Origin: a virus | DNA length: 31,563 bases | Strand: one strand, 5' to 3' | Virus record (IMG/VR): IMGVR_UViG_3300020454_000042 | Span: 1-31,563 of that record | Shown: in pieces, positions 10 through 27,678 of the stretch | How positions within the stretch are numbered: position 1 is the first letter of the stretch | How the letters are laid out: each line of letters opens with the position of its first letter | Translations under genes and position numbers: made by a program | Notes under the pieces: model-generated | What the model was told of the DNA's origin: nothing | Seen by the model: the letters and a program-made list of their open reading frames with translations, nothing else | Databases searched by the model: none

Positions 10-240
10 ATGTTAAGAAAATTTATATGTAAAGTAACCCATTATAATCTTGGTGAAGATTCAATTGAGAGAGAGCATATAGTATATATGCCTCAGCAAG
101 AGTATGATACTTCAGGTTCAAGATATCGTAATCATAATTGGGTAGAAAAGAAACTAGAAGAAAAGATAGGTAAAAAATATGATGATGGTAGCTATTCATC
201 TAAATGGTACATTAATCGTATTTACCAAGAGAGGATATAA
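10..240 (+). CDS. Small unknown early protein (76 aa)
   Basis: First gene visible in the early plus-strand cluster. The ATG follows an AAGGA-like ribosome site at 2-6. The protein is polar and basic, rich in Tyr, Lys and Glu, with no membrane segment and no motif I recognise. Its stop overlaps the ATG of the next small frame at 240. Any promoter lies off the left edge of the window. Function unknown. Confidence 0.7.
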   Translation: MLRKFICKVTHYNLGEDSIEREHIVYMPQQEYDTSGSRYRNHNWVEKKLEEKIGKKYDDGSYSSKWYINRIYQERI

Positions 241-407
241 TGAAATCAAAAATTAAAGGTATGACAGATACAGAGTATACTGCTCATATGAAACATTTGG
301 CTATCTTTACAGATTGCAAGGAGGTAAAAAATGTACCGAGTAATACTAAAGGGAAAGTTCAAAGAAAGACCAATAAATCTAGCAAGAGCAGTAAAGCTAA
401 TATATAG
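240..407 (+). CDS. Possible small overlapping gene (55 aa)
   Basis: The ATG at 240 overlaps the upstream stop codon (TAATG arrangement), so translation could be coupled. The frame runs 55 codons and has a Lys/Ser-rich C-terminus. It overlaps the next gene (start 331) by 77 bases. That gene has a much stronger ribosome site, which lies inside this frame. The low-complexity C-terminus may simply reflect the other reading frame, so this call is uncertain. Confidence 0.4.
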   Translation: MKSKIKGMTDTEYTAHMKHLAIFTDCKEVKNVPSNTKGKVQRKTNKSSKSSKANI

Positions 408-630
408 GCAAAATTTTACTGGTTCACTTCGTAAAGAGAACTTATCCTGGTGGAAACAATATTGGATAAAGCCTGTATATTTACAGATAATATATCCAAA
501 GAAAGGATGGATAACTTTAGTAAAAGTATATCGAGAAGGTATACCATCAATCAGAGTAATAACTAAACCAACCAGCTCATCTAAGAGGGAGCTGCTTGTT
601 TATGATAAATTATATGGAAAGGAGGCGTAA
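331..630 (+). CDS. Basic unknown early protein (99 aa)
   Basis: The start is chosen from a near-perfect Shine-Dalgarno AAGGAGGT at 318-325, six bases before the ATG. The protein is basic and rich in Trp, Tyr and Lys, with no membrane segment. A Trp/Tyr-rich stretch lies near residues 40-63. The stop overlaps the ATG of the XRE regulator by one base, so the two are probably co-translated. No family recognised. Confidence 0.72.
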   Translation: MYRVILKGKFKERPINLARAVKLIYRQNFTGSLRKENLSWWKQYWIKPVYLQIIYPKKGWITLVKVYREGIPSIRVITKPTSSSKRELLVYDKLYGKEA

Positions 631-1007
631 TGGGTAGAAGAAAAAGATTCAACCAATTACCAGGTGCTAAACAGTTAGCTAAACAATTATTGTTGCACAG
701 AGTATGGAATGGATACTCACAAGAAAATGTAGCTGATGTATTACAAGTAACATTCCAACAATATCAGAAGATAGAAAAATGTGAGAACAGATTGTATGCA
801 GAACAACTGATAGCAATATGTAGACATTTTAAATGGGATCCTAGCATTATTATGTTAGCAGATCCACGTGCTACTCTTGATGAATGGGTTGAAAATAAAC
901 CAAGAGGTCAAAGAGCAGGTATTGATAGTAGTAGTAAAAGAATACTGAATAAATGGTATCGAATAGATATCAATGCCGAAAGTAATTATTTTAACGAAAG
1001 GAAATGA
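630..1007 (+). CDS. XRE/Cro-type helix-turn-helix regulator
   Basis: The 125-residue protein has an N-terminal helix-turn-helix at about residues 13-72. The pattern is a basic helix, then YSQENVADVLQVTFQQYQKI, then an E-N-R turn, which matches the Cro/C1-type (XRE) domain. After the domain comes an acidic/aromatic linker and a basic Ser/Lys-rich tail. It lies third or fourth in the early cluster, behind a GGAGG ribosome site at 621-625. It probably represses or activates phage early genes. No integrase or second repressor is visible, so a classical lysogeny switch is not supported. The DNA-binding role is family knowledge; the target is unknown. Confidence 0.85.
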   Translation: MGRRKRFNQLPGAKQLAKQLLLHRVWNGYSQENVADVLQVTFQQYQKIEKCENRLYAEQLIAICRHFKWDPSIIMLADPRATLDEWVENKPRGQRAGIDSSSKRILNKWYRIDINAESNYFNERK

Positions 1008-1008
1008 T

Positions 1009-1212
1009 GTGGGAATTATTAATATTGTCAGAGTTATTGCTTATAGCGTTACAGGTCTCATCGTAAGAAAAAGTTGGAATTGGCTCACTGCCGATGTCGA
1101 TCCAATTCCTGGAACGAAAGAATTTGATGATGAATATCGTCAAGTACGTAGTAAATATCTACGTTTACGTAAACGAAAGGAAGAACATGAAACGTATAGA
1201 AAAAGCAGGTGA
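1009..1212 (+). CDS. Small protein with hydrophobic N-terminus (67 aa, GTG start)
   Basis: I prefer a GTG start at 1009 over the in-frame ATG at 973. The GTG is preceded by AAAGGA at 997-1002 with a six-base gap and begins just after the regulator's stop, whereas the ATG lies 35 bases inside the regulator gene. Residues 2-19 are hydrophobic and may be a membrane anchor. The C-terminal half is highly charged (Arg/Lys/Glu). No family recognised. Confidence 0.6.
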   Translation: MGIINIVRVIAYSVTGLIVRKSWNWLTADVDPIPGTKEFDDEYRQVRSKYLRLRKRKEEHETYRKSR

Positions 1213-1366
1213 TGTGCTTATTAAAGCGTTCACATTACCAATCAGAGTGTGTGTTGGTCTGTACAAGTGTATTGAAAAGAATACACCTGAAAGACTTGAA
1301 ATGCCATTCGAAATTAAAAGAAAGGAGGATACTGATGGAAGAAACAAAGAAACTACCAGTTGCTGA
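1187..1366 (+). CDS. Small unknown protein (59 aa)
   Basis: The frame is open further upstream to 1094, but the ATG at 1187 has GAAAGGA at 1175-1181 and suits the packed layout. It overlaps the previous gene's end by 26 bases and the next gene's start by 32. It contains a short hydrophobic, Cys-containing stretch near residues 10-24, followed by a charged tail. No family recognised. Confidence 0.5.
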   Translation: MKRIEKAGDVLIKAFTLPIRVCVGLYKCIEKNTPERLEMPFEIKRKEDTDGRNKETTSC

Positions 1367-1616
1367 AAGAGTTACTAAATCAACTATGGGTTTGACAAAG
1401 TGGTTTATGGAACAATACTTTCAAACTTTTGAAATGGTAAGTAAAGATCCAAGATATAAAACTTTACCACCATATAATCAAACTTCTTGTATAGCTACTA
1501 TCATGATTGCAACAAATGCAGTCAAAGATAAAATGCGTGAAAAAGATGCAAGAGAAACTGCTGAGATATTGGAAACAATGTCTAAAGTAGATCAACAAAC
1601 AGGAAAGGTTGCTTAA
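1335..1616 (+). CDS. Unknown early protein (93 aa)
   Basis: The open frame extends upstream to 1209. The ATG at 1335 is clearly the start, because AAAGGAGG lies at 1321-1328 and the upstream residues are Cys/Leu-rich out-of-frame text. The protein looks helical, with an aromatic N-terminal half and a charged amphipathic C-terminal half. The stop overlaps the ATG of the 204-residue protein by one base. No family recognised. Confidence 0.75.
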   Translation: MEETKKLPVAERVTKSTMGLTKWFMEQYFQTFEMVSKDPRYKTLPPYNQTSCIATIMIATNAVKDKMREKDARETAEILETMSKVDQQTGKVA

Positions 1617-2230
1617 TGACTGATAAAGTAATGAGACCTATACGTAAAGAAGAATATGCGTATTGGGATTATAATACTGATTCAGAATATGAAGCTAGAA
1701 AGTCTAGTCTGAAATCGGAAATGATTGATGAGATTGATGAAATCACAGAACAAAATCATTTGAAGTTTCAGGCTAGATTAAAGCTTGATACTGATATGCA
1801 GGATATAAGAAACAAACATAAAGCTTATCATGATTTTGTTACTAACAAAAATATGATGGAGCAACAACTTAAAAATGATCTAGATAGGTCAGTTGATAAG
1901 ATGTATGACAAGTTAATTACTTGGAATAAACAAAGAAAGTGGCTTACTGATATAACTAGAAAACTTATCAGTGATCCAAAAGATCATGAAGCTCTAATCA
2001 AGAAATTATGTAGAGAAGAAACTGAGAAAGCATATTATGCTGGACCAAAAGGTAAAGCATTACAGCTCTTAGAAATATCTAAGAAAAGAGCTAAACATAT
2101 TCTTAACTCAGGACTACCTCTTAACGTAGCAGTAATGAGAATAGCTGAAGAAGGTGCTAGTCAAAAGATTAATTTTGAAATACCACAAGATGTATTCAAT
2201 CCTGCTTTTGCTATTACTAATAAGAAATAA
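1616..2230 (+). CDS. Charged helical/coiled-coil early protein (204 aa)
   Basis: This is the largest gene in the first early cluster. Residues 20-130 are almost entirely charged and helix-forming, and heptad-like spacing suggests coiled coil. The rest includes a basic Ala/Lys-rich segment near 145-160. No catalytic motif or membrane segment is visible. Translation is coupled to the preceding gene by the one-base stop/start overlap, and a strong stem-loop follows the stop. Function unknown; a scaffold-like or host-protein-binding role would be a guess. Confidence 0.8.
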   Translation: MTDKVMRPIRKEEYAYWDYNTDSEYEARKSSLKSEMIDEIDEITEQNHLKFQARLKLDTDMQDIRNKHKAYHDFVTNKNMMEQQLKNDLDRSVDKMYDKLITWNKQRKWLTDITRKLISDPKDHEALIKKLCREETEKAYYAGPKGKALQLLEISKKRAKHILNSGLPLNVAVMRIAEEGASQKINFEIPQDVFNPAFAITNKK

Positions 2231-2236
2231 ACTATT

Positions 2237-2271
2237 GGCTATTGCCCAATCTCGAATGGTTGGGCAATGCC
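2237..2271 (+). promoter_or_regulatory. Stem-loop upstream of a ribosome site
   Basis: ATTGCCCAA (2241-2249) pairs perfectly with TTGGGCAAT (2260-2268). GGC/GCC extends the stem past one bulged T at 2240. No U-tract follows, so it is not a standard terminator. It sits directly before CTAACAG, a ribosome site and the ATG at 2288. A similar arrangement occurs before 7730 and near 4641. It may be an RNA processing site, an attenuator, or a stabiliser of the downstream message. Confidence 0.55.
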
Positions 2272-2287
2272 TAACAGAAAGGTTGTT

Positions 2288-2521
2288 ATGGAAGAAAATA
2301 CGCAAGACAAAGTAAATACTATGATTGCAAAACACATTGATAAAGTGTCTGATCTTAGTAGATCACAAAGTAAAGTAATATTGAATCATGATGATAGAAT
2401 TAAAGATGTAGTAAAAAGTGTAAAGTTTTTAGCTATGACTCAAATTGCTACTCTTATGATTCTTGGTCTAATTCATGCTACACATTCAGGTTGGTTTGAC
2501 AACATAGGATGGTTACAATGA
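2288..2521 (+). CDS. Small membrane protein (77 aa)
   Basis: The ATG at 2288 is chosen over the in-frame 2267 because GAAAGG at 2277-2282 precedes it and 2267 lies inside the upstream stem. The charged helical N-terminal half (about residues 1-48) is followed by one hydrophobic segment at about 50-66, then a short aromatic tail. This coiled-coil-plus-membrane-anchor layout resembles the XhlA-like protein at 11973, but I see no real sequence match. Stop and next start overlap as ATGA. Probably an inner-membrane protein of unknown role. Confidence 0.65.
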   Translation: MEENTQDKVNTMIAKHIDKVSDLSRSQSKVILNHDDRIKDVVKSVKFLAMTQIATLMILGLIHATHSGWFDNIGWLQ

Positions 2522-2676
2522 AATTAGATGATCAAGAAAAAATATTAAACAAAGCATCTGATAAAGCTGTTGCACAAATAATTAAAGAGAGGAAAACTTC
2601 TCGAAGAAATTTAATTAAAGAGTGGTTTAGATTTGCAGAGCTTGTCAGTAAACAAATTAAGAAATATTTATCATAG
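2518..2676 (+). CDS. Small basic helical protein (52 aa)
   Basis: The ATG overlaps the preceding stop codon (ATGA at 2518-2521), so translation is probably coupled. The protein is Lys/Arg-rich and looks wholly helical, with no membrane segment or recognised motif. The frame fills the gap between the genes at 2288 and 2684 exactly, which is the main support for it. Confidence 0.6.
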   Translation: MKLDDQEKILNKASDKAVAQIIKERKTSRRNLIKEWFRFAELVSKQIKKYLS

Positions 2677-2683
2677 GAGTTAT

Positions 2684-2881
2684 ATGAAAAAAAATAAAAA
2701 AATATGTCCAGAAAGTAATGTTTACATGTATTACAATGATAAATGGAATATTAAATTGTTTATCAATGCTAATAATTTTGACGAAGCAATGAGCTTATTT
2801 GATATATGTGACTTTGATAATAGAGATGAATGGTCAATATATTTAAGATGTGGAGCTCGACCAACGAAAGGTAAACGATGA
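2684..2881 (+). CDS. Small unknown protein (65 aa)
   Basis: The start is at ATG 2684, after TAGGAG at 2674-2679. The upstream ATG at 2633 lies in the previous gene and has no ribosome site. The N-terminus is Lys-rich, the middle is Tyr/Asn/Asp-rich, and the C-terminus is basic. The stop overlaps the next ATG (2878). No family recognised. Confidence 0.6.
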   Translation: MKKNKKICPESNVYMYYNDKWNIKLFINANNFDEAMSLFDICDFDNRDEWSIYLRCGARPTKGKR

Positions 2882-3066
2882 GTAAATTAATGGAAACAAA
2901 TGAATTAATGTTAGCTATCGAACAGATGCTCATTAAAAACTTAAATGCCTCAATAATTGCACATGGTCAAGCAACAGTTGATACTTGTGCAGCTGATTTT
3001 CAATGTATTATTGATGGTAAAACTTATAACATTGAAATACAACAATCGGAGGAAGATGATGATTAA
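2878..3066 (+). CDS. Small acidic unknown protein (62 aa)
   Basis: ATGA overlap with the gene before. It is predicted to be helical at the N-terminus, with a short beta-rich stretch and an acidic tail ending in Glu-Glu-Asp-Asp-Asp. The tail-coding region also supplies the ribosome site CGGAGGA for the next gene, so the two are tightly coupled. Function unknown. Confidence 0.6.
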   Translation: MSKLMETNELMLAIEQMLIKNLNASIIAHGQATVDTCAADFQCIIDGKTYNIEIQQSEEDDD

Positions 3067-3424
3067 AGTACCTAAAGATGTGCATAAAGCATTGGGCATT
3101 ATGCTAAAATATAAATTAATAAATGAAGCTGGTATGTCAGCATATTTAGCTAAATTTATTAGACGTGAAAGTACACCACGTGTAGTACAGTTACCTAAAC
3201 CAAGAGAAGCAACTGCAGCTCTTGAAAGAACATTAGTAGATATTACTAATGGAATTAGCAATCAAGCATTTGATGTAAAAGAAATGACATCAAAAGTAGA
3301 ATCTAGAGTTGGTAAAACAACTGATAGTGCTGTTAGATATGTACTAGGTTTAATGGTTCAAAAAGGTCTTATAGAACAAATACATTCAGATGGTAGAGTT
3401 CTATTTGGTAAAAAATATAAATAG
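3059..3424 (+). CDS. Winged-helix-like DNA-binding protein (121 aa)
   Basis: The frame is open from 2957, but the start is ATG 3059: CGGAGGA at 3047-3053 lies five bases upstream, and the residues before it are Leu/Val-rich out-of-frame text. The C-terminal half (about residues 70-121) reads as helix, helix, then a Gly-containing hairpin ending in a basic tail. The stretch TTDSAVRYVLGLMVQKGLIE resembles the recognition helix and wing of winged-helix proteins. The N-terminal half is basic and Pro-containing. A regulatory DNA-binding role is inferred from this pattern alone. Confidence 0.6.
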   Translation: MIKVPKDVHKALGIMLKYKLINEAGMSAYLAKFIRRESTPRVVQLPKPREATAALERTLVDITNGISNQAFDVKEMTSKVESRVGKTTDSAVRYVLGLMVQKGLIEQIHSDGRVLFGKKYK

Positions 3425-3432
3425 GAGGATAA

Positions 3433-3777
3433 ATGTATAAATTACATATATGGAAATCTGCCATTGAGCATGGTTTACCTATAAGAGATGAAGAAACATA
3501 TGAGTTTACAAAAAAACCTACTTTTTCTGATATGTATCCATTATTAGATTGTGATATGATTGAAATTTTACATGGATATGATAAGACTATATCTAATAGA
3601 ACTTTTGATATTTATTGTGATGAAGAAAGTAAAATGAAAAGTTCTTTTGTAAAAAATGATAGAGCAACAGATGCATGGTATCGTTGGCAAAAAAGAACAG
3701 GTAGAACCTGTGTACCAGGTGATTTCATTGCAGGTAATGTTGCTATCATAGAAAAGGTAAAGGATGAAGCAGCGTGA
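3433..3777 (+). CDS. DUF3846-like protein (114 aa)
   Basis: It has a perfect ribosome site TAGGAGGA at 3423-3430. The C-terminal half shows a pattern I associate with DUF3846: an I-Y-C-D-E-E turn, then KNDRATDAWYRW, then a Gly-Asp-Phe-Ile-x-Gly-Asn-Val-Ala-Ile ending. The family occurs in phages and mobile elements and has no known biochemical role. The 14-base overlap with the next gene suggests coupled translation. The family match is moderate and from memory of the pattern. Confidence 0.6.
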   Translation: MYKLHIWKSAIEHGLPIRDEETYEFTKKPTFSDMYPLLDCDMIEILHGYDKTISNRTFDIYCDEESKMKSSFVKNDRATDAWYRWQKRTGRTCVPGDFIAGNVAIIEKVKDEAA

Positions 3778-4021
3778 AAAAATAAAGAATCCAGAGCCTC
3801 GTAATTTAAGCGAGGTTCTGAAAGAATGTCATGATTTAGTTGCTCAGTTGAGAGTAAAGTTAAAACTTAAATGTGATGATATACTTCAACTACGTAAAGA
3901 TCTAGATATGGCAAAAGAAGAAACTCAATTAGCTGAACTTAGATACAATACATTAAAAGATGCAGTAGATAAAGCAGCTAATGATAAACTTAACAAAGCT
4001 AGAGGAGAACTAAATGACTGA
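3764..4021 (+). CDS. Coiled-coil protein (85 aa)
   Basis: Residues 15-80 are a continuous Leu/Lys/Glu-rich helix with heptad-like spacing, suggesting a coiled-coil dimer. It has no membrane segment or catalytic motif. It is embedded between overlapping neighbours on both sides (14 and 8 bases). Function unknown. Confidence 0.65.
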   Translation: MKQREKIKNPEPRNLSEVLKECHDLVAQLRVKLKLKCDDILQLRKDLDMAKEETQLAELRYNTLKDAVDKAANDKLNKARGELND

Positions 4022-4256
4022 TCAAACTAAACATAATATTGATCATTTGCATACAAAAAATAAATCAAAAGGTCATGAGATTCGTAAAGCAGAAGATGCT
4101 TTAAGTGATGCTATGGAATCATTGTCTGTAATAGATAATGCTATATCTTGTGGATTTTTGTTTGACAGACATTCTTTGATATTGCAAGAATGGGCAAAAG
4201 AATATCGTGAAGAAATAGAAAGATGCAAAATGTTTTTAGAAAATACAGGAGAATAA
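4014..4256 (+). CDS. Helical unknown protein (80 aa)
   Basis: The ribosome site GAGGAG at 4002-4007 lies inside the previous gene. The N-terminus is His/Lys-rich, and two predicted amphipathic helices follow around a short Cys/Phe-containing turn at about residues 44-52. It overlaps its upstream neighbour by eight bases. No recognised family. Confidence 0.62.
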   Translation: MTDQTKHNIDHLHTKNKSKGHEIRKAEDALSDAMESLSVIDNAISCGFLFDRHSLILQEWAKEYREEIERCKMFLENTGE

Positions 4257-4257
4257 A

Positions 4258-4419
4258 ATGGCAAATGAAGGACAATGGAAAGCTCTTGTTGCTAGTAAGC
4301 AATTAGAAATAGATAAACTAAAACGTATAATAAAGGAAATGGAAAATGAAAACAGACAGCGAAGTTCTTCGGATAGAAAAAAGAATACGAGGACTAAACA
4401 GAGTGACGTCAGCGATTAA
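4258..4419 (+). CDS. Possible small basic protein (53 aa)
   Basis: The ATG lies one base after the previous stop, with CAGGAG at 4247-4252 as ribosome site. The first 30 residues form a charged helix; the rest is Arg/Ser/Lys-rich and low in complexity. The last 74 bases overlap the next gene in another frame. The overlap resembles the 240/331 pair, and only one member of each pair may be fully functional. Confidence 0.5.
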   Translation: MANEGQWKALVASKQLEIDKLKRIIKEMENENRQRSSSDRKKNTRTKQSDVSD

Positions 4420-4555
4420 TGATTTATCTATCTATGGTATTTTCTATGGTAACTATCCTGAATTAGTTAGAGTATTAGAAGATGCAAAAGATCATGTTAA
4501 AGTAGAATTAAAACAATCTAAAGAAAGATTAGAAATTATTTCTGCTAGTGAATAG
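4346..4555 (+). CDS. Unknown protein, last gene of the first early cluster (69 aa)
   Basis: The ribosome site AAAGGA at 4333-4338 precedes the ATG at 4346. Two charged helices flank a short aromatic Gly/Tyr segment near residues 29-38. The gene ends just before a 120-base run of stem-loops at the convergent junction. No recognised family. Confidence 0.65.
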   Translation: MKTDSEVLRIEKRIRGLNRVTSAINDLSIYGIFYGNYPELVRVLEDAKDHVKVELKQSKERLEIISASE

Positions 4556-4565
4556 AATTCTATTT

Positions 4566-4603
4566 AAGCCCTGGTATACCCATAAATAATTGCTGCTGGG
4601 CTT
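4566..4603. other. Stem-loop 1 of the convergent junction
   Basis: AAGCCC (4566-4571) pairs with GGGCTT (4598-4603) around a 26-base loop. It is the first of three stem-loops in a row between the converging genes at 4555 and 4679. On its own it is weak; its interest lies in the series. No U-tract follows on either strand. Confidence 0.4.
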
Positions 4604-4613
4604 CATGTAGATA

Positions 4614-4639
4614 CACCCATCAGGGAGACTTGGTGGGTG
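4614..4639. other. Stem-loop 2 of the convergent junction
   Basis: CACCCATCA (4614-4622) pairs with TGGTGGGTG (4631-4639): nine pairs, one of them G-T, around an eight-base loop. It is stable on the plus-strand RNA and slightly weaker on the minus. It lies immediately before CTAATAG and a ribosome-site-like GAGAGGTTGTTATG, the same order as around 2237-2290. Confidence 0.5.
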
Positions 4640-4640
4640 G

Positions 4641-4682
4641 CTAATAGGCATGGAGAGGTTGTTATGACCTCGTGCCTATTAG
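4641..4682. terminator. Bidirectional terminator-like hairpin between converging genes
   Basis: CTAATAGGCA (4641-4650) pairs perfectly with TGCCTATTAG (4673-4682), with GAGGT/ACCTC as a likely inner stem. A perfect ten-pair outer stem works equally on both strands and separates the plus-strand early genes from the converging minus-strand genes; the stop codon of the minus gene lies in the stem. There is no clear U-run, so termination may need Rho or the hairpin may act as a message 3' end. Confidence 0.55.
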
Positions 4683-4981
4683 ATTTCTGTAATCTTAACT
4701 ATCCAAGATTTAGGTATCATAGTACGATCACCAAAGGTTATTGTACCATCATCTTCTTTATCGTAACTTGCAAATAACTTTATTGATTTACGATCTTTAG
4801 AGAAGATCCAACCTTCATTAACTGGTGTAGCCAGTTTCATATTTTTAAATTCTTTATCAGATGCCCAAGCTGAATCACTTACACAATCTACCCATTCAAC
4901 TCTAACTTTGGTATAAGGTATATCATTAGAGTCCTTGTCTCTAACTGATTTCTTTTTTTTAGTGTAACGTCTTTTTGTCAT
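4679..4981 (-). CDS. Unknown phage protein (100 aa)
   Basis: It has a Lys/Arg-rich N-terminus (residues 1-16), then an alternating beta-type pattern. The centre is VRVEWVDCVSDSAWAS and the end is FGDRTMIPKSWIVKI, a layout I have seen in small hypothetical proteins of other phages. It looks like a small beta-barrel-like domain, with no catalytic residues identified. It is last in the minus-strand group, and its start overlaps the end of the gene at 4959. Function unknown. Confidence 0.7.
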   Translation of the reverse strand: MTKRRYTKKKKSVRDKDSNDIPYTKVRVEWVDCVSDSAWASDKEFKNMKLATPVNEGWIFSKDRKSIKLFASYDKEDDGTITFGDRTMIPKSWIVKITEI

Positions 4982-5222
4982 GAGCTGCCCATATATAGTG
5001 TTCTACTTCGTCAAAAGGTACGATTGTTTCACCTTCTTCTTCAAAAACTAATTGTAAGTATGTGCTATAGATAATGGCAAGTGCCATTGCGTCAGCAGCT
5101 TTTAGTGTAAGATGAGGATTTTGTTCTTTAATAAAATCACCTATAGCATCAGCTTTTACATTGCTGAGAAATTTATCAGAGTAAGCTTTGCTTCGCTTTG
5201 GAAATTTTAATATTTTAGTCAT
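4959..5222 (-). CDS. Small helical unknown protein (87 aa)
   Basis: A basic N-terminus is followed by predicted helices with an Ala-rich middle (about residues 40-58) and an acidic C-terminal part. The ribosome site AGAGGT lies about nine bases before the ATG. It overlaps the following gene by 23 bases, as expected within one operon. No family recognised. Confidence 0.65.
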   Translation of the reverse strand: MTKILKFPKRSKAYSDKFLSNVKADAIGDFIKEQNPHLTLKAADAMALAIIYSTYLQLVFEEEGETIVPFDEVEHYIWAAHDKKTLH

Positions 5223-5258
5223 ATTTACACGTACCTCTGGCGAGGATAACTTAAATAA

Positions 5259-5681
5259 CTATTTGGGTTGCAGTAGAAAATCAATGTTTTTTTTAATCTT
5301 AGGTACAAGTTTATTATAAACTTTAATCCAAAGTAATGAATCATCATAAAAAAAGTTCTTATTTTTCCACATTTTGTAGTAATGATCATAAAAAATACCA
5401 CATATTGATATAGGATCAATATCTAATTTGGACCAAAATTGTCTTTCAGACATCCCACAGTTGTGTAATTGATGATGATGTTTGACACACAAAGGTATTG
5501 TAAATTGATCACCTACCTTTTGTCCTATACCTCTATGTTGTGCATATTGTATATGATGTGCATTACAGCCATTTTGTTGACATATTATACAGGGATTACT
5601 TGCTACCCATTTCAGGTAGTTTTTGTCTTTTATTTTGAGTTCCTTGTCCTTTGATAGTGTTATGCACTTTTTTGTACCCAT
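5259..5681 (-). CDS. Ref/DUF968-like HNH nuclease (140 aa)
   Basis: The zinc/nuclease core is easy to see. Cys31-x2-Cys34 is followed by His42-His43, a Gly-Ile-Gly-x-Lys loop, and then Ile-Pro-Leu-Cys65 with His68-70 and Leu-His73. The order PC-x2-C, HH, GxGxK, D, IPLC, HHxxLH and a later FW matches the P1 Ref (recombination enhancement function) and DUF968 families. P1 Ref is a RecA-dependent DNA nuclease. The gene overlaps the upstream DUF6456-like gene by 86 bases, and no strong ribosome site precedes the ATG, so the start is uncertain. Likely role: recombination, or cutting of structured DNA. Confidence 0.78.
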   Translation of the reverse strand: MGTKKCITLSKDKELKIKDKNYLKWVASNPCIICQQNGCNAHHIQYAQHRGIGQKVGDQFTIPLCVKHHHQLHNCGMSERQFWSKLDIDPISICGIFYDHYYKMWKNKNFFYDDSLLWIKVYNKLVPKIKKNIDFLLQPK

Positions 5682-6096
5682 AATATATTGCCAATCTAGC
5701 TAAACCTTCATGTGTTCTATTTGATGCTTTACGTTCTGTCAATCCAAGAATGTGTGCTATTTCAATTATTCCATGATTAAACCAGCAAAATAACTTCATA
5801 CATTCTGCAAAAGATTTACCTATTTGTTCATCACAATCTTTGACTGCCATAGCAGCTCCAAGAGATGATGATATAAAATCAGTACTGGAACCATCTACTC
5901 TATCTTTTAAGTAATTTCCTGTACTGCCACCCATAAGTTCACACATTAATCTATATCTAGAACCTGCTTCATATTCTTCCATAGATATAAGTTTACGATG
6001 AAACATATACATTAGACGAGATTCTCTAATGTTTAACCAAACTTTTTTCTTGTCTCTAATAGTAGAAATAAGTTCAGGTTTTTCTATTTTACGCAT
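5596..6096 (-). CDS. DUF6456-like regulatory protein (166 aa)
   Basis: The frame is open to 6183, but I choose ATG 6096, which overlaps the stop of the upstream gene by eight bases. Two parts match my memory of DUF6456, found in alphaproteobacteria and their phages. The first is an EEYEAGSRYRLMCEL segment near residues 38-52. The second is a C-terminal half with a conserved Cys-Trp-Phe, then ILGLTERKASNRTHEGLARL, which looks like a helix-turn-helix. The family's function is not established; DNA binding or late-gene control is inference from the helix-turn-helix-like end and its position beside the DnaA-like gene. Confidence 0.62.
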   Translation of the reverse strand: MRKIEKPELISTIRDKKKVWLNIRESRLMYMFHRKLISMEEYEAGSRYRLMCELMGGSTGNYLKDRVDGSSTDFISSSLGAAMAVKDCDEQIGKSFAECMKLFCWFNHGIIEIAHILGLTERKASNRTHEGLARLAIYYGYKKVHNTIKGQGTQNKRQKLPEMGSK

Positions 6097-6415
6097 ATGT
6101 ATTTGTATAGTTATCTTTTGCTTTATCAACAAAAGATCTAAATTTGTCATTAGTATTATACAATTTGTATAATCTAAATACACGATTTTTATTACAACAA
6201 TGATGACGAGCTATAAGGCTTTTACACCCATACGCTTTCGTAGGGTGCAATAGCCAAGACAATATAATAGATAAGTTGTATAAATTATAATGTTGTTTGT
6301 CAGTTATTGCTGATTTACCTTTTAACATATCTATTGGTATGTTATAGGTATTGCTTATATATTTTTGAATATTAATAACCATGAGGAGATAATTATGAAA
6401 ATTAAATATAGACAT
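6089..6415 (-). CDS. DnaA domain IV-like DNA-binding protein (108 aa)
   Basis: The best start is ATG 6415, four bases after a strong GGAGG (6420-6424 on the complement). Residues 13-36 and 45-98 resemble the C-terminal DNA-binding domain of DnaA. A first helix ends in Y-N-I-P-I-D-M-L; a hydrophobic helix follows; then a basic R70-H-H segment aligns with the Arg-Asp-His-Ser-Thr signature; then comes a helix resembling DnaA's last helix (FRSFVDKAKD). No AAA+ ATPase domain is present. It may bind DnaA-box-like DNA to recruit or block host replication. The gene overlaps the divergent nuclease gene's start by 21 bases. The family match is a pattern call. Confidence 0.5.
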   Translation of the reverse strand: MSIFNFHNYLLMVINIQKYISNTYNIPIDMLKGKSAITDKQHYNLYNLSIILSWLLHPTKAYGCKSLIARHHCCNKNRVFRLYKLYNTNDKFRSFVDKAKDNYTNTYA

Positions 6416-7156
6416 TCTGCCTCCAAGACTAATACGTTTATTGATAGTCCACCATTTTGGATTATCAATGAATTATTTGATTTTGAGTCAGAACCAAATG
6501 CAAGAATGGTAATGGGATTGGCAGCTGAGGATGCTGCACATCATGCATTATCAAACCAAATCAATGATCAAGATACTATCACAAAGAGAGCTTTTGAACA
6601 ATATACGAGTGAACACAAAAGAGATCTAACAGAAAGTGAATGTGATTGGTCTGGTATCATTGCTAATAAGTTTGTTGAAAACTTAAAAGAATTTGGTGAA
6701 GTCAAATCATTTCAAAATGAAAAACAAATATCTGGTGAAAAATATGGTCTAAAGTATGATGTAATAGCTAAAACTGACTTTGAGTTTGATGAATGTATCG
6801 TAGATACAAAAGCTACAGCATATATTAGACGATTAAAAGCAGGTCATGTAGATCCTAAATGGTATCCAAAACCTGCTGATATACGTCAACAATGTCTATA
6901 CAGAGATATGTTTGGTAAGCCTACAATGTTATTATATTGTTCTCCAAAAGATGTCTATGTTGCAGATATGGTAGATCGTACAGATTTGGGTGATATTATT
7001 AATGCTATGAAGCATATCGAACATATACTAGAAATATGTAAAACTAAAGATGACGTTGTTCGCATATTTCCTTTGATATGCGACAACTTCAGATGGAAGG
7101 GTAGTCCTGGATCTGAAGAATTTGCTAAAGAAATCTGGACGAAAGTATTGAAATAA
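6395..7156 (+). CDS. PD-(D/E)XK nuclease, Cas4/RecB-like (253 aa)
   Basis: The start is ATG 6395, six bases after GAGGAG at 6383-6388. Motifs appear in the usual order for RecB-type PD-(D/E)XK nucleases. Gly41-x3-Glu45 comes in an Ala/His-rich helix. Asp122 (KYDV) is followed by Asp137-Thr-Lys139 in CIVDTKAT, the catalytic strand, and by a Gln165-Gln-x2-Tyr169 helix. Length fits single-domain phage exonucleases, and there is no helicase domain. It leads the second plus-strand cluster and is followed at once by an SSB-like gene, a typical recombination pair. Likely role: processing DNA ends during phage recombination or replication, or degrading host DNA. Confidence 0.82.
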   Translation: MKIKYRHSASKTNTFIDSPPFWIINELFDFESEPNARMVMGLAAEDAAHHALSNQINDQDTITKRAFEQYTSEHKRDLTESECDWSGIIANKFVENLKEFGEVKSFQNEKQISGEKYGLKYDVIAKTDFEFDECIVDTKATAYIRRLKAGHVDPKWYPKPADIRQQCLYRDMFGKPTMLLYCSPKDVYVADMVDRTDLGDIINAMKHIEHILEICKTKDDVVRIFPLICDNFRWKGSPGSEEFAKEIWTKVLK

Positions 7157-7218
7157 GTTATAGATTTGCAATGCAAAAGTTTGGAAAAATACTAAATAAA
7201 ATAAACAGGAAGGTTCAT

Positions 7219-7653
7219 ATGGAAAATGAAACATTCGAATGTTCGTTTCGTAAAGCATTCGAGAAAGATGATGGTGGTGTAACTGTATACGTTACTAAAG
7301 ATGATGGTACAGATATGACTATTTATGGTGAAGCTATTGGTACTCAAAGATGGCAAAAAGGTGCTAGATTGAAGATTGCAGCTCAACCAGTAAGAACAAG
7401 TAAATCAGGTAAGCAGTATCAAACTGCAAGTATGATTGAATTGTTAAGTGGTGAAGTTGCTGTACCAAGTGGTGCAACATCAAGTGCTACAGGTAAAGAT
7501 ACTGCTGCACAATGGAAAGAAAAATACAGATTAACTATGAGTAATTTATTATCTGCTGCTATACAATCTGGTAACGTAAATTTTGATGAGATTGATGGTT
7601 ATGTACGTAAGATATTGAATGCTCAATACGATGGAGACGAGGCTCCATTTTAA
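7219..7653 (+). CDS. SSB-like single-stranded DNA-binding protein (144 aa)
   Basis: The start is ATG 7219, after AGGAAGG at 7207-7213; the frame is open upstream to 7171. Residues 1-75 alternate in a beta-rich pattern compatible with an OB fold (short strands with a Gly-Asp-Gly turn). The linker region is Ser/Thr/Gly-rich. The last residues are DGDEAPF, matching the acidic tip ending in Pro-Phe of bacterial SSB proteins, which binds partner enzymes. I see no clear sequence match to a named SSB. The neighbouring nuclease strengthens the call. Likely role: coating single-stranded phage DNA and recruiting host recombination or replication enzymes. Confidence 0.6.
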   Translation: MENETFECSFRKAFEKDDGGVTVYVTKDDGTDMTIYGEAIGTQRWQKGARLKIAAQPVRTSKSGKQYQTASMIELLSGEVAVPSGATSSATGKDTAAQWKEKYRLTMSNLLSAAIQSGNVNFDEIDGYVRKILNAQYDGDEAPF

Positions 7654-7656
7654 CAG

Positions 7657-7687
7657 AATCATTTATCTCCCTCTAGAGTTAATGATC
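7657..7687. other. Weak stem-loop after the SSB-like gene
   Basis: ATCATT (7658-7663) pairs with AATGAT (7681-7686) around a 17-base loop that itself holds the palindrome CTCTAGAG. It lies in the 76-base gap after the SSB-like gene. It is too weak and too AT-rich to call a terminator, but it lies close before a stronger stem-loop. Confidence 0.3.
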
Positions 7688-7690
7688 GTT

Positions 7691-7714
7691 GCTGGGTGGG
7701 TGCTCCCTGCCCAG
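7691..7714 (+). promoter_or_regulatory. Stem-loop upstream of the 7730 gene
   Basis: CTGGG (7692-7696) pairs with CCCAG (7710-7714). A T-G pair and GGG/CCC (7698-7700 with 7705-7707) continue the stem past one bulged T. The loop is TGCT. No U-run follows; instead TAACAGAAAG and the ATG at 7730 come next, the same order as at 2237-2290. It is likely an RNA element acting on the downstream message. Confidence 0.5.
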
Positions 7715-7729
7715 TAACAGAAAGATTTT

Positions 7730-7939
7730 ATGGACTTGATACTTCTAAATGATGGAGTGTATAGTCTAGTATCAATCACAAAAGAAATGTTGAAAGAAAT
7801 TGAACTCTTTACTGAGGTCGATTGCTTTGATTTATGTGATATATTAAGACTACACTTGACAACATATTATGATGAAATAAATCGACACGTGATGAATGAT
7901 GGAACAGGAGATTTTTTCGGATGCATTTGTTCAAATTAG
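7730..7939 (+). CDS. Small acidic unknown protein (69 aa)
   Basis: A GAAAGA-like ribosome site (7719-7724) precedes the ATG. The protein is acidic, with Leu/Asp-rich helices and Cys residues at 32, 36, 65 and 67, but with no clear zinc-binding spacing. It follows the stem-loop leader described at 7691. No family recognised. Confidence 0.6.
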   Translation: MDLILLNDGVYSLVSITKEMLKEIELFTEVDCFDLCDILRLHLTTYYDEINRHVMNDGTGDFFGCICSN

Positions 7940-8070
7940 AACTAGAAATGATGGGTATAAACACTTATAATAGGGATGATTTGGTTTTAAAATTATATAA
8001 ATTATATTTAAGAAAGGATAAAAGTGATTACAGAAAAGAGATTGGAAGAATCCTTAAAATATCTTGCTGA
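7921..8070 (+). CDS. Possible small basic protein (49 aa)
   Basis: ATG 7921 begins inside the previous gene's end and has GGAG at 7907-7910, ten bases away. The frame fills the 84-base gap before the next gene and overlaps it by 47 bases. It is rich in Lys, Leu and Tyr and probably helical. No family recognised. Without this frame the gap would be non-coding. Confidence 0.4.
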   Translation: MHLFKLELEMMGINTYNRDDLVLKLYKLYLRKDKSDYRKEIGRILKISC

Positions 8071-8350
8071 TACAGATGAAGAATCTGCAAGTGCTAATGC
8101 TAATGTTAAATATTTAGATAGATTACTTAAACGTAAAAAAGCATTACACATAACAGGTAATAAAGAGGATAAAAGTATATCTGCAAAAGAACAAACATAT
8201 TATGCTAGTGATATATATAAATCAGCAGTAGATGAATTGTTTGATGCAGAAGTTAAATCTAATACATTAGATAATAAGAGAGATAAAGAAGCTCTTATTA
8301 TAGATTTATTTAGAACATTAGAAGCTAGTAGAAGGAAAAATAATATATGA
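8024..8350 (+). CDS. Helical unknown protein, GTG start (108 aa)
   Basis: The start is GTG 8024, with AGAAAGGA at 8011-8018 and a five-base gap. There is no upstream ATG in frame with a ribosome site. The protein is highly charged and helical, with a Tyr/Ala-rich region near residues 60-75. Its compact, Lys/Glu-rich, Cys-free composition resembles small phage proteins that act on nucleoid or repair complexes, but I recognise no family. Confidence 0.62.
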   Translation: MITEKRLEESLKYLADTDEESASANANVKYLDRLLKRKKALHITGNKEDKSISAKEQTYYASDIYKSAVDELFDAEVKSNTLDNKRDKEALIIDLFRTLEASRRKNNI

Positions 8351-8508
8351 GAAAAATAAAAAGCTGGGCAATAGTTGTTAATTATGAAGGTGACGAAGAA
8401 GATGTAACTTATAATTTAACTACATTACCTGATAGTATATCAGGACCAATAGATGATTATTTAACAGAATTAGAATTAGATGATGATTTACAAGAGAAGA
8501 AAGAATAA
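8347..8508 (+). CDS. Small acidic unknown protein (53 aa)
   Basis: ATGA overlap with the previous stop (8347-8350). A short basic N-terminus and one predicted beta strand are followed by an acidic Asp/Glu/Leu-rich remainder. The size and acidity would fit a DNA-mimic-like or inhibitor protein, but there is no direct sign of it. Placement exactly in an otherwise empty stretch supports it as a gene. Confidence 0.55.
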   Translation: MRKIKSWAIVVNYEGDEEDVTYNLTTLPDSISGPIDDYLTELELDDDLQEKKE

Positions 8509-8511
8509 TAT

Positions 8512-8613
8512 ATGACAGTAGGATTAGGTATAGGTATGTTTACTTATAATATGATTTGTTTAATGATAGGTGCTATCATTGTATATTATGTAATTAAAAA
8601 TAATGATCTATAA
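8512..8613 (+). CDS. Small membrane peptide (33 aa)
   Basis: ATG 8512 lies three bases after the previous stop. About residues 4-28 form a Gly/Ile/Val-rich membrane segment, with a short Lys-Asn-Asn-Asp tail. The upstream sequence is GA-rich but has no strong ribosome site. The overlap with the next start (8603) and gap-filling position support translation. Probable single-pass inner-membrane peptide; function unknown. Confidence 0.45.
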   Translation: MTVGLGIGMFTYNMICLMIGAIIVYYVIKNNDL

Positions 8614-8785
8614 ATTTAGAAGATGGGTTATTTTACCTGCGTATGCTGAGATTATTATTTCAGCAAACTCTGATAAAGAAGCCTTAAAAATAGTACAAGC
8701 TATAGATCCACAAACTTTAAATTGGCAAGAAACAGATCCTGCTGATCAACGAATGACCTATGAAGTCATAGATGAGAAGTCCTGA
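8603..8785 (+). CDS. Small unknown protein (60 aa)
   Basis: The ATG overlaps the end of the previous membrane peptide. The N-terminus is basic and aromatic; residues 18-34 look like a strand-helix pair (IIISANSDKEALKIVQ), and the end is acidic. The stop region overlaps the following gene by 14 bases. No family recognised. Confidence 0.55.
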   Translation: MIYKFRRWVILPAYAEIIISANSDKEALKIVQAIDPQTLNWQETDPADQRMTYEVIDEKS

Positions 8786-9071
8786 ACAAAGAATGTTTCT
8801 TAATGTAATAACCCAAGCAGTGCATGATGCAGCATATAAAGGTTATGATCGTTATTATGAATATCATAGAGATCAAGCAATATCTTGGCTTACCAGTAAT
8901 TCACAAGATTTTAGAGCTATATGTGTATTAGCAGATTTAGATCCTGATTATACATATTTAAAAATGGTTAAAGCTATAAAGAGTGATATAAAACAATTAC
9001 GTAAAAATTATTATAAAAAACAAAAACCAGAACGAGAAAATCGTCCTGGTCGATATAGATTGAAGTTCTAA
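8772..9071 (+). CDS. Helical phage protein of unknown function (99 aa)
   Basis: The N-terminal half is helical (MFLNVITQAVHDAAY). A mid segment includes RDQAISWLTSNSQDFRAICV followed by an L-D-P-D-Y turn. This arrangement of a Trp-containing helix, an Ala/Cys-rich helix and a turn resembles small hypothetical proteins I have seen in proteobacterial phages, and may form a helix-turn-helix. The C-terminus is strongly basic. It overlaps the DUF3310 gene by one base. Possible DNA binding is inference. Confidence 0.62.
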   Translation: MRSPEQRMFLNVITQAVHDAAYKGYDRYYEYHRDQAISWLTSNSQDFRAICVLADLDPDYTYLKMVKAIKSDIKQLRKNYYKKQKPERENRPGRYRLKF

Positions 9072-9313
9072 TGACTGATATAGATATGTTTAAAGATATG
9101 ACTTATGATACACTTAATAAACAAGTAGATGGGAATCATTATTCAAAGATGAAGGTTCAACCAGCATACTTTATTAATGAAAATAATTTACCATTTGCCG
9201 AAGGCAATGCTATTAAATACATTTGTCGTCATAAAAGCAAAGGTAAAAAAAAAGATATAGAAAAAGCTATTCACTATCTAGAAATGATTATAGAAAGAGA
9301 TTATAGTGCTTGA
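9071..9313 (+). CDS. DUF3310 family protein (80 aa)
   Basis: Residues 18-75 match the DUF3310 pattern closely. The order is VDGNHYSKMKVQPAYFINEN, then an F-A-E-G-N-A-I-K-Y-I-C-R-H-K block, then KGKKKDIEKAIHYLEMIIE. This family is common in phages, sometimes fused to nucleotide-metabolism enzymes, and its function is not settled. It is the last gene of the second plus-strand cluster and is followed immediately by an intrinsic terminator. The start overlaps the previous stop by one base. Confidence 0.88.
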   Translation: MTDIDMFKDMTYDTLNKQVDGNHYSKMKVQPAYFINENNLPFAEGNAIKYICRHKSKGKKKDIEKAIHYLEMIIERDYSA

Positions 9314-10603: not shown

Positions 10604-11013
10604 GCTTTATACATCCCTTCTACGATTAACTCATCATCATAAGGTTGCATACCATTTTCCATTTGTATAATTGCTTTTACAAGTGGTAGGTAATCTTCCA
10701 TACTATTATTAAGTTTTACATCTTTTTCTTTTTCAAGTTTTTTACACACAAATTCAACATACTTATCAGTAGAATTTTCTGATGGGGGTGCCCATCTATA
10801 AATTATTTCATCAATAGTAGCTTTTTTATGAGTAAATCTATATGTAAGAAGTATTCTCTGTAGAGCTCTTATGCCCATTACAGCTTCATCAAATATACAA
10901 AAAGTTGGATCTGTCTGTTCAGCAGACAAACCATCCCAATCTGTACCTAATTTAATATTACCTGGATTTTTATTTCTAATACCTCTAGGTAATTTTTCTA
11001 TTCCATCTGCCAT
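10567..11013 (-). CDS. Peptidoglycan-degrading virion/endolysin protein (148 aa)
   Basis: Residues 10-29 read RGIRNKNPGNIKLGTDWDGL, and residues 35-58 contain T-D-P-T-F, F-D-E and GIRALQRILLTY. The Arg-Gly-Ile-Arg-Asn-x-Asn-Pro-Gly-Asn-Ile block is the hallmark of a family annotated as structural protein P5 or muramidase-like lysis proteins in many phages. The rest has the helical Trp/Tyr-rich look of the lysozyme-like fold. There is no signal peptide, so release would need the holin. It overlaps the metallophosphoesterase gene by 29 bases. The catalytic residue cannot be assigned from sequence alone. Confidence 0.76.
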   Translation of the reverse strand: MADGIEKLPRGIRNKNPGNIKLGTDWDGLSAEQTDPTFCIFDEAVMGIRALQRILLTYRFTHKKATIDEIIYRWAPPSENSTDKYVEFVCKKLEKEKDVKLNNSMEDYLPLVKAIIQMENGMQPYDDELIVEGMYKAWEGLPTISSAS

Positions 11014-11689
11014 TGTCTTTTAAAACCATTGGGATTAATTTAGGCAATCCATCAATGATAACTCCTGTTCCTATTACTGGTCTAGACTTCTGAAGTTTAT
11101 TATATTCAAAAGCTAAACTTTTCATGTTAATTAAACACCCAACTTGCATACCCCAAAGTAGTTCATTGGGATTACTCCAATAATCTATTTTGTAGCAGGT
11201 ATGATAGTGCCCCTGCACTGTACACATACCATATTGTTGAGCAACTTTTAAAACATCTTTGTATTTACCATGACAGAAATATATTTTCTGTCCATTAGAT
11301 GCTTTTAGAATTAGATCCTCATGCCATGTCCAACCTTTACCTACACCTAACATATGATTATATGATTTAAAAACTTCGTGTGGTAAACCATATCTAGTAG
11401 CTTTTCTAAATACTAAACTACCATGATTAGAGTCCATAACATATTGTTTTGGAAATAATTTTTCTAAATCTTTAAAAAATTTTCTAGCAACCTGCAGCTC
11501 ATGACTTGGTGAATATAATCCTGGATGAGAATCATGAAATGAAATACTATGCCAATCCATCTCATCACCTATATTAACAACTGTATCAGGTTTATATTTT
11601 TTTTTGATAGCAGTTAAAAAGTCTATTGTATCTATATGATGATAAGGAGCATGTTGATCACTTATCACAAGTATTGATTTTCTTAACAT
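10985..11689 (-). CDS. Calcineurin-type metallophosphoesterase (234 aa)
   Basis: All the metal-binding motifs of the family are present in order: Asp11-x-His13 (SDQHAP), Gly41-Asp42 (IGDEMDWHS), Ser87-Asn88-His89, Cys139-His140-Gly141 and Gly160-His161-x-His163. The expected GNH[DE] motif reads SNHG. These enzymes hydrolyse phosphate mono- or diesters, and in phages the natural substrate is rarely known. The gene sits between structural and lysis genes, downstream of a 50-base gap holding a possible promoter, and has no clear ribosome site. It may act on nucleotides, RNA ends or a signalling nucleotide. Confidence 0.88.
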   Translation of the reverse strand: MLRKSILVISDQHAPYHHIDTIDFLTAIKKKYKPDTVVNIGDEMDWHSISFHDSHPGLYSPSHELQVARKFFKDLEKLFPKQYVMDSNHGSLVFRKATRYGLPHEVFKSYNHMLGVGKGWTWHEDLILKASNGQKIYFCHGKYKDVLKVAQQYGMCTVQGHYHTCYKIDYWSNPNELLWGMQVGCLINMKSLAFEYNKLQKSRPVIGTGVIIDGLPKLIPMVLKDNGRWNRKIT

Positions 11690-12176: not shown

Positions 12177-15100
12177 TAAAATAATGTCTTATAAGGATCT
12201 CTTATAAGTCCTTTCGTTTTATATTGTGTATATCTTGGTCCTTGATATCTAGGATGTCCAAGTTGTCCTAACACAAAATCAACAGCAGTATCAGATGCAA
12301 GATCTAAGGATAATCCTTGTTCTTGTAATCCTTCTGCTACGTTTCGTGATGCAGACTGTAACCAAATAGGTAAGAATCTCATACCTACATGACCACCTAT
12401 TTTTAGTCCTTTTTCAATCGCCTCATCATCTTTTTTAGTAATATTTGGACTCCACTTAGTAGTCAAGTATTGTTTATTAGTTAATACTTCTATTGTTGTT
12501 CTAGGTAGAGAACCAATCTTTTTAAGACCAGTTGATTGTGGATCTGTTATCCAATGGAAAGGCTCCATTAATTGTTTAGAAAATGTGAGTACTTCGCCAT
12601 TTCCTAAGTCAATTCTTGTTGGATCTGTATTCTCTAATATTGAGTGTCCACTAAATATATAGTTTAGTGCAGATCCTGCTACAGCATACGTAAGTGCAGC
12701 TCTAGCAAAATAGTATTGATACATTCTACGTAATGCAGGATCAGACTCAAAGTTAGGTAATGACTTAGCAATAATCCTAATATTAGATATTGTCCAATCA
12801 GGAGCAAATAAAAGTAATTGCATATAACCTCTAGATGCTGGTTGTAACGTAGTTTGTGCTAATCTTTTAAGTGTATCAGATTGTATTCTGTTCGCTAATT
12901 GTTCCCAATTTTGTCCACCAAATGCATCATTAGCAAATGTAGCAGCTTTAGTTGCTTTACCATATATTTGTGCCTGAGTATCACCAGGCATAACTCTTAA
13001 TAAATTAGGTCTACCCATCAATGTAGGTGCATCTAATACTGTAAGAAATGTGTGAAGCTTAGCTGCTGTAAAAATTCTATCCCATGTAATAGTATCAAAC
13101 CATCTAAATACTTTTTCTACTCTATTATTTGTAGATACACCAAAGTGTCTTTTTAAGAATGGATCTAATCCTCTAAGATTATAATAGAATCTATCAAATC
13201 CTGTATCTTCAGGTACTGATATTTGTAATCCTACACCTTGACCAAATCTTACTACATCATCATAACCTGCTGTACGCAGTTGATCTATAGCATGACCAAA
13301 GTCTTTTATATACGCTTTTGGATCTTGAACAGATTTAAGTATTTCTGGTTTAGATCTGGGATCTAATGTTTTTTTAATAAAGTTTGGTTTAGCTCCTGCA
13401 AACCATAATGATTCTACTAATGCACCAGCATGAAAGAATGAAAAACCTACTGCTAGTCTTTTCATCATTAAGTTGGTTGTAAAGAGTGCACCCATTAATG
13501 CACCTTCATCAGTAGCATCAAACACCATTCTTAATGAATTAATCATACCTTTATGTACTAATACAGAATCAGTTCTATCTGCAAAGTATGGATGTTTAAA
13601 TTCTGTATAATTAGTATCATCAAAAGTTTTTTTGACGTTGTTTCTAATTATTAATGGTTTTTTAGATATTTCTGTAAGTTCTAAATTTTTTATTACAGCT
13701 CTCGTAGAGAGTGCTTTACCTGCTGCAAAAGTATACATTCTTACCAGCTCAGCTGGATCATCTTTACCTAAACGTATTGTAAATCCTTTTTGTAATCCAT
13801 GATTTATATCACCAAATACACCACGTTTAGCAAATTGAAACTTACCTGATGGACCAGTTACAATCCCTGTATCAAAGTCTTTTACAAATCTAAATGGTTG
13901 TGCTTTTGGATTATATTCATTCCAAAGCAAAGGTAGATAATTAGTTCTTTTATTAAATACTAATTTTTCACCACCTGCACCAAATATATTATAATATTCA
14001 TTAAAAATTTTTTCTATAGTTTTAGCTGCTTCAGGTAGATTTTTATCTACAGCTCTAAGCTCATCTAAAGTAATAGGTTTTAGTTTACCATTATATCTAA
14101 ATGTTTTTCTATCTACTCTAGCTTTTGTAAGATAATAAAATAATAATCTTCTTGAATCTATAGCATCAGGTATTTTAGATTTAATTACATTAGATAATTC
14201 TTGTGCTGCTGAATTTAATCTAACTGTGCTTAGTCTAGCAGCATCTAATGTAGCTTCACCTGATAGTGCTGCTTCTTCAAAATCTTTTGGAAGTTTTCTA
14301 AGTTGAGATCCTAATAATCTACTAGCACCATATATTGCTGCACCTATACCAAAACCTTTAGCTGTTGCTACAAGTTTTTCATCTGGTGATGTAAGAAATT
14401 GTGCTGTACCAAAGATAGCTCCAACTGCTCCTGCTCTTTTTAATGCAGTAGCAAGTGCCATATCTTTGCCATTTTCATTAATTTGTCTAAGAGCTGCTGT
14501 TACATCTGCCTTAATTAAGTCAAACTTTTTAGGATCAGATATAGTACCAGCTTCTTTTCTAATTATTTCTATTAGTTCATCTACATTTCTATAGATACCT
14601 TGTTCATTGAAATCTACTAACTTCTCTGCATTCTGATTATACTTGTCAAATACTTTTCTATGAGCTGCTTCTATTCTGGCTCTGGGTACTCTAGTTAATC
14701 TACGAACAAGCTCACCAGTTCCTGCAAAACCTACTGAAAACAAAGCTCCTGCTGTAGCTCCTATAGTAGTTTCTATAGATGTTCTTTTTGGATCTAGGTT
14801 TGCATTTTCACCTAACTGAAATGTAGTAGAAAATACTAATGGTGTAGCTAGTGTAGCTGTTGCACCTACTTTTAGATCAGATGCTATTTTAGCTTTTAAT
14901 CTTTTGTATTGTAAATTTTTACCACGTTTTAACTTAATAGAATTTACTACACCTCTACCAAGTCTACCCCATCCTAAAGGCATAAATAATAGCCAAGGAT
15001 CAGCAACAATCATATTTACAAGTTCAGCACCAAATAGTTTAGGATTTTGTTTTACCATATTCCCAACTTCTTTGATATCTATATTCATTGGTCCTTCTTC

Positions 15101-27409: not shown

Positions 27410-27678
27410 TACTCTGTCAATTCAGTTACGTATAAATTTACAGTTCCTATTACAGCAACTTTTTCACCTTCAGATACTTTAAAGTATTCTGATGATTTAG
27501 ATTCTAAAAATATTTTAGAAGTTGTTGCTGTAGGATTAACTCCAAACTCAATATGACAATCTGCATCTGGTACTACTCTAACATATTCTACGTTAGAACC
27601 AAATGCTGATGATTGAGCTGAAGATCCTGATGAATTAACTTTTTGTGTAGTAACAGGTCTCATCGCAATGTGTGACAT
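27409..27678 (-). CDS. Small beta-rich virion protein (89 aa)
   Basis: It has a Ser-rich N-terminal third and a short beta-sandwich-like remainder with regularly spaced Val/Tyr/Phe. The stop overlaps the next start by one base. Its place among head genes suggests a capsid surface or connector protein. No named family recognised. Confidence 0.62.
   Translation of the reverse strand: MSHIAMRPVTTQKVNSSGSSAQSSAFGSNVEYVRVVPDADCHIEFGVNPTATTSKIFLESKSSEYFKVSEGEKVAVIGTVNLYVTELTE

Follow-up and report, generated by a model that had tools for sequence, protein, structure and literature searches.

How does a phage genome that encodes no replicase gain access to the replication machinery of its host? SAR11-phage-related phages are among the most numerous at sea, and several of their groups lack a replicase; to our knowledge, the route by which such genomes reach the host replisome is not known. 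The stretch analysed here (the window) is a viral record of 31,563 bases, a linear fragment that starts in early genes and stops inside a portal gene. It contains a compact group of DNA-handling genes between the early and late regions. The ORF map and the features of this group are as follows.

10-4555, plus strand: early genes (ORF map).
4679-6415, minus strand: first part of the block (ORF map).
4679..4981, minus strand: 100-aa protein (phrog_25889), function not assigned; constant block member.
4959..5222, minus strand: 87-aa protein, function not assigned; constant block member.
5259..5681, minus strand: HNH endonuclease of the DUF968 (YdfU-like) family, 140 aa (PF06147 above the cut-off; phrog_96).
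5596..6096, minus strand: 166-aa basic protein with a C-terminal helix-turn-helix-like stretch, IIEIAHILGLTERKASNRTHEGLARL (phrog_21451; weakly DUF6456-like, below threshold).
6089..6415, minus strand: predicted stand-alone DnaA-domain-IV-fold protein, 108 aa, without an AAA+ domain (fold by model); GGAGG precedes the start codon.
6395-9313, plus strand: second part of the block (ORF map), with late genes on the minus strand thereafter.
6395..7156, plus strand: putative RecB/Cas4-like PD-(D/E)XK nuclease, 253 aa (motifs; profiles below significance).
7219..7653, plus strand: SSB-like protein, 144 aa (OB-fold model, two C-terminal helices, acidic tip ...YDGDEAPF).

Five of these ORFs had been singled out as a replication and recombination set by an earlier, sequence-only reading, and the ORF list contains all five where that reading placed them. 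They are part of a seven-gene block spanning 4679-7653. Relatives were retrieved from IMG/VR using three block proteins plus the SSB-like protein, which yielded 227 loci; many of these share contigs, and the number of distinct 1.1-kb contexts is 99. All seven genes were visible in 183 of the 227 loci, and gene order and strands (a-b-c-d-e-f+g+) were identical in every relative reaching far enough, with no exception among the 227. Each of the five named genes had a dN/dS of 0.10-0.35 in six comparisons, which indicates purifying selection. Given this invariant order and the low dN/dS, the block is a real, co-inherited unit.

Three gene starts were corrected. The start of the 166-aa gene was corrected to 6096 because the sequence upstream is not open in several relatives, the nuclease gene was taken to begin at 6395 with an ATG behind GAGGAG, and an alignment of 20 relatives placed the start of the SSB-like gene at 7219. 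The gene for the 108-aa protein (start 6415) and the nuclease gene (start 6395) lie head-to-head with 21 coding bases in common, so the promoter of each must lie within the other gene. The overlap at 6395-6415 is kept in relatives.

The individual assignments of the other named proteins changed to different degrees. The HNH protein passed the cut-off for DUF968 (PF06147, 56.6 bits against 27.8, E 4e-15) and fell below that for the RecA-dependent nuclease Ref (PF16786, 20.2 bits against 26.9). Its initial description as Ref-like is therefore replaced by DUF968, which leaves a Ref-type, RecA-dependent role without support. The HNH core is like that of the E. coli YdfU-type DUF968 nucleases of lambdoid phages (E 4e-15, 30-50% core identity), whereas the window protein is short (140 aa) and its C-terminal part is unrelated. 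A DUF6456 identity for the 166-aa protein, also suggested from the sequence, stayed below threshold (PF20057, 14.6 bits against 26.3) and was dropped along with the former gene start; the protein also gave a weak match to a sigma-factor chain.

The case for a RecB-type nuclease is divided: the RecB/Cas4 PD-(D/E)XK motif series (E45, D122, D137-x-K139, Q165-x3-Y169) is invariant in eight relatives, but no profile match was significant (phrog_69 exonuclease, E 0.037; none in Pfam or PDB). The proposal of an SSB-like protein with an acidic tip is borne out by the model, which predicts a five-stranded OB barrel (pLDDT 74), and by the tip ...(D/E)xPF, in which D138, P143 and F144 are conserved in at least 90% of 20 relatives. 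Bacterial SSBs, PriB and tRNA synthetase OB domains tie as structural matches to residues 1-84 of the model (Z about 9), and the protein had no SSB sequence match in Pfam, PHROG or PDB.

None of the window proteins scanned matched a polymerase, helicase or primase, in agreement with the sequence-only reading, and no ORF in the early region exceeds 263 codons, the length of the longest one. The part of the genome missing from the window was read in two near-complete relatives, G1 (38,669 b) and G2 (36,757 b), whose breaks lie at different places and which jointly cover the whole circle of genes. Their stretch from portal to early genes encodes both terminase subunits (large and small) together with small proteins, none longer than about 150 aa, and a PHROGs scan of 16 proteins from it returned no replication enzyme. 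The search of the missing part, made through these two relatives, thus also found no polymerase, helicase or primase. Since none is seen in the genome as read through the relatives, reliance on the host replisome is a sensible reading. To this extent the earlier idea of a takeover of the host replisome is supported; its specific mechanism, a decoy or recruiter, is not.

By its structural genes, the closest isolate is Pelagibacter phage HTVC106P, whose genome is complete. The structural genes are homologous (head protein 57%, tail protein 71%), and HTVC106P likewise has no annotated polymerase or helicase. Unlike these genes, the replication and recombination block of the window has no homolog among HTVC106P proteins. 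Non-homologous look-alikes occur in HTVC106P (MN698244.1, L065) at 4658-5257, 5241-5609 and 7170-7808, all annotated as hypothetical. They are, in that order, a probable single-strand-annealing-like protein (phrog_11717), a protein of 122 aa whose last residues are IPF, and a possible PD-(D/E)XK protein. The most conserved non-structural protein seen was a 234-aa metallophosphoesterase (window 10985-11689, minus strand), which is 94-97% identical among relatives and 52-57% identical to those of other pelagiphages and of Methylophilales phages. Relatives of the capsid came mostly from Alphaproteobacteria, at identities of at most 57%, and SAR11 is a plausible host. No member of the 108-aa family was found in 84,980 genomes at the search sensitivity used.

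What could such a block do? The computed features are a conserved gene block, predicted DnaA-IV and OB folds, the lack of a polymerase, helicase and primase, and a lost DnaA-box signature. Beyond these we infer DNA binding by the 108-aa protein, its target site and replication role, and the identity of the host. Our preferred reading, to which we give about an even chance, is that the block is the early DNA-handling set of an HTVC106P-related marine podovirus, in which the host carries out synthesis and the 108-aa protein recognises a site specific to the phage. Under this proposal, the host replisome (DnaB, primase and polymerase) would perform phage DNA synthesis and the phage would supply accessory functions only: two helix-turn-helix-type proteins (the DnaA-derived DNA-binding domain and the 166-aa protein), two nucleases (the DUF968 HNH and the RecB/Cas4-type enzyme) and the SSB-like protein with its OB fold. 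The 108-aa protein would bind, via its helix-turn-helix, a phage-specific DNA site rather than DnaA boxes. Once bound, it would tag either the origin of the phage or an operator for the loading of host factors. Both nucleases, together with the SSB-like protein, may process ends and single strands, leading to recombination-dependent replication or concatemer formation.

The strongest rival to this proposal is a role as a transcription switch. The 108-aa and 166-aa proteins would then be early transcription regulators (an operator-binding repressor or activator, or a late-gene switch) that use a DnaA-type fold merely as a helix-turn-helix, while replication would be started by host DnaA/DnaB or by recombination, independently of both proteins. 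We regard the two parts of this reading together as a real possibility that falls short of being probable. One operon encodes the two helix-turn-helix-like proteins side by side and diverges from the nuclease and SSB operon; such an arrangement suits a switch equally well. DUF968 genes in lambdoid phages adjoin antitermination-Q annotations, and the divergent block of HTVC010P-type phages holds annotated transcriptional regulators. Against a switch, the predicted fold is specifically that of DnaA domain IV and no generic helix-turn-helix, and phage proteins of the same fold are annotated as replication initiators, although an annotation is no test.

How well the DnaA domain IV fold is established bears on both readings. 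Profile searches did not recognise it: PF08299 (Bac_DnaA_C) had no match in the window, in the 108-aa protein or in 15 relatives, the protein itself had no Pfam, PHROGs or NCBIfam match, and the 15 family members had none in Pfam. A PDB profile search of the protein returned a cyclodipeptide synthase as its sole match, which we judged to be chance. An AlphaFold2 model built with the 15 relatives reached a pLDDT of 78 and a pTM of 0.68, with low confidence around the helix-turn-helix (pLDDT below 50 at residues 65-75). When this model was compared with the PDB using VIA-align, six DnaA entries (five species) were the top six, with Z of 9.3-6.3: M. tuberculosis 3PVP (9.3), E. coli 1J1V (8.5), A. 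aeolicus (7.9, 6.8 and 6.3) and B. subtilis (7.8). The next fold scored 3.8. The tool's own note warns that chance can account for a Z below about 13 when helical bundles are compared, values of 8-13 being frequent, and we base the fold claim on the consistency of the hit list and on the gap of 2.5 Z units.

Foldseek also placed M. tuberculosis DnaA domain IV as the top two matches, with E-values that are weak when taken alone (1.3 in PDB, 0.09 in BFVD), and the named top matches in BFVD were mostly phage 'DnaA C-terminal' proteins of 100-180 aa. An hhalign comparison with a small DnaA-IV alignment paired the motif NIQK...YNI...LKGK at a probability of 33%, a weak result from one comparison. 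The protein is basic (pI 9.7), and its entire length of 108 aa includes neither an AAA+ ATPase domain nor domain I. We conclude that its predicted fold is that of DnaA domain IV, with a Trp-repressor-like helix-turn-helix. The initial guess of a DnaA-domain-IV-like protein thus holds at the level of model and fold search, where no different fold emerged. That the protein is instead a small helical helix-turn-helix protein unrelated to DnaA, matched through a coincidence of modelling, seems to us quite improbable. Such a coincidence would fit the missing sequence match to DnaA or to the HTVC010P protein, the moderate pLDDT and the tool's note on chance scores of helical models (often Z 8-13). 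It fits poorly with the ranking of each listed DnaA entry above each other fold by a gap of 2.5 Z units, with the named top matches in BFVD, an independent library, being mostly phage DnaA C-terminal proteins, and with the hhalign alignment of the N-terminal motif to DnaA.

In E. coli DnaA, the box-reading residues, which we take to be R407-Q408 and D433-H434-T435-T436 (1J1V complex), have no R-Q or D-H-T-T equivalents in the 108-aa protein. Its recognition turn reads C-N-K-N-R-V where DnaA has G-R-D-H-T-T-V, and none of 28 family members has D-H-T-T. The helix-turn-helix of the family is invariant at K65-S66-x-I-A-R70...N77-R78-V79-x-R81, with the recognition-helix residues N77, R78, V79 and R81 invariant in 28 relatives. 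From the altered turn and these invariant residues we infer that the 108-aa protein likely binds DNA and that canonical DnaA-box recognition is not likely. The exact box TTATCCACA is absent from the window, and relaxed boxes (TTWTNCACA) number 4 against 6.3 expected, a deficit within chance. Boxes were not enriched in three near-complete relatives either, and the same holds for HTVC010P-type genomes.

Least likely of all, and highly improbable in our view, is the suggestion that the protein acts on host DnaA boxes as a decoy or competitor, silencing host oriC or redirecting DnaA: a DnaA-IV fold without an ATPase would suit it and a scarcity of boxes would spare the phage, but the D-H-T-T and R-Q residues are absent, boxes are not enriched in the window or the three relatives, and their low number (relaxed, 4 against 6.3) is within chance. 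A recruiter acting on DnaA boxes is unlikely as well.

A different box distribution was seen in Methylophilales phage Venkman (MT375522.1, L066). This genome has five exact boxes TTATCCACA against 0.46 expected, four of them at 0.05-1.8 kb (52, 365, 1758 and 1790) and one at 38.6 kb (38614), and no stand-alone DnaA-IV-type protein is annotated in it. Direct recruitment of host DnaA is a possibility in Venkman.

Replicase-less phages with a stand-alone DnaA domain are already on record, by annotation, in the HTVC010P type. All HTVC010P-related genomes list DnaA among their proteins (Chen et al. 2019, PMC6811365). Phages of this type are reported to have no DNA polymerase, and Skadi to be also without genes for helicase and primase and to rely on enzymes of the host (PMC10504331). 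In these pelagiphages (HTVC010P at 27001-27531, Skadi, Greip, HTVC203P and others) we found a DnaA-IV-only protein of 170-180 aa with no ATPase, whose gene has a nuclease gene, a single-strand annealing protein gene and a regulator block nearby. The window shares with them a short DnaA-domain-IV protein without an AAA+ ATPase, predicted in its case from the model, in a phage without polymerase, helicase or primase, and the closeness of its gene to a nuclease operon and to a regulator block. The HTVC010P protein, however, scores 62.7 bits with PF08299 (cut-off 31.5) and retains D-H-T-T, whereas the 108-aa protein lacks D-H-T-T and lies below Pfam recognition. BLASTP between the 108-aa and HTVC010P-type proteins gave no alignment at E <= 100. 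The gene partners differ as well: the window gene adjoins a DUF968 HNH gene, and a profile search found no Erf-type annealing protein in the window block.

The 108-aa protein also resembles, in size and fold, the uncultured-Caudovirales proteins in BFVD/UniProt annotated 'Chromosomal replication initiator, DnaA C-terminal', many of which are 100-180 aa long. Unlike those proteins, the window family is recognised by no profile, and most top rows showed 11-17% identity over the structural alignment. What is new here is a divergent variant: a second lineage, with a signature-less DnaA-IV version that sequence profiles miss and with different gene partners. A more specific history is that the phage took a DnaA DNA-binding domain, dropped its ATPase and box specificity and re-targeted it to its own origin, leaving a 108-aa adaptor that hands DNA to the host replisome. 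We put this forward tentatively, as an unlikely scenario.

Where might a phage-specific site lie? The block yielded no origin, iterons or binding site, and the window contained no convincing iterons or tandem repeats. GC skew in the window tracks the gene strand. Outside the window, the junction of the late block and the early genes is occupied by some 370-410 nt of conserved non-coding sequence, at 1131-1498 in G1 (L068) and 12188-12600 in G2 (L070). It is rich in dyad symmetries, and the surrounding 502 nt are 72% identical between the two. This stretch is the best candidate for an origin, control or packaging site of the phage group.

A second conserved non-coding element lies within the window (4556-4645, plus strand), directly 3' of the stop codon of the last early gene. 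It consists of AATTCT, a variable stem with an interior of 20-120 nt, AGATA and a 9-bp hairpin with the invariant loop GGGAGACT. Versions occur in relatives, for example at L223 143-230, L228 380-469 and L122 9985-10076, and also in some loci where no block gene was found. Across 19 versions the hairpin pairs almost perfectly while seven of its nine pairs vary, mostly on both sides, and the same interior is combined with different hairpins. Rfam recognised no known RNA family in the window and had no match to the element at 4556-4645, which looks like an undescribed structured RNA or a DNA cruciform.

Returning to the preferred reading, the block shows the same solution as in the HTVC010P type in a lineage whose version is missed by sequence profiles. 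Its conserved, minimal DnaA-derived protein, with altered recognition residues, is a concrete and testable candidate for an origin- or operator-binding factor.
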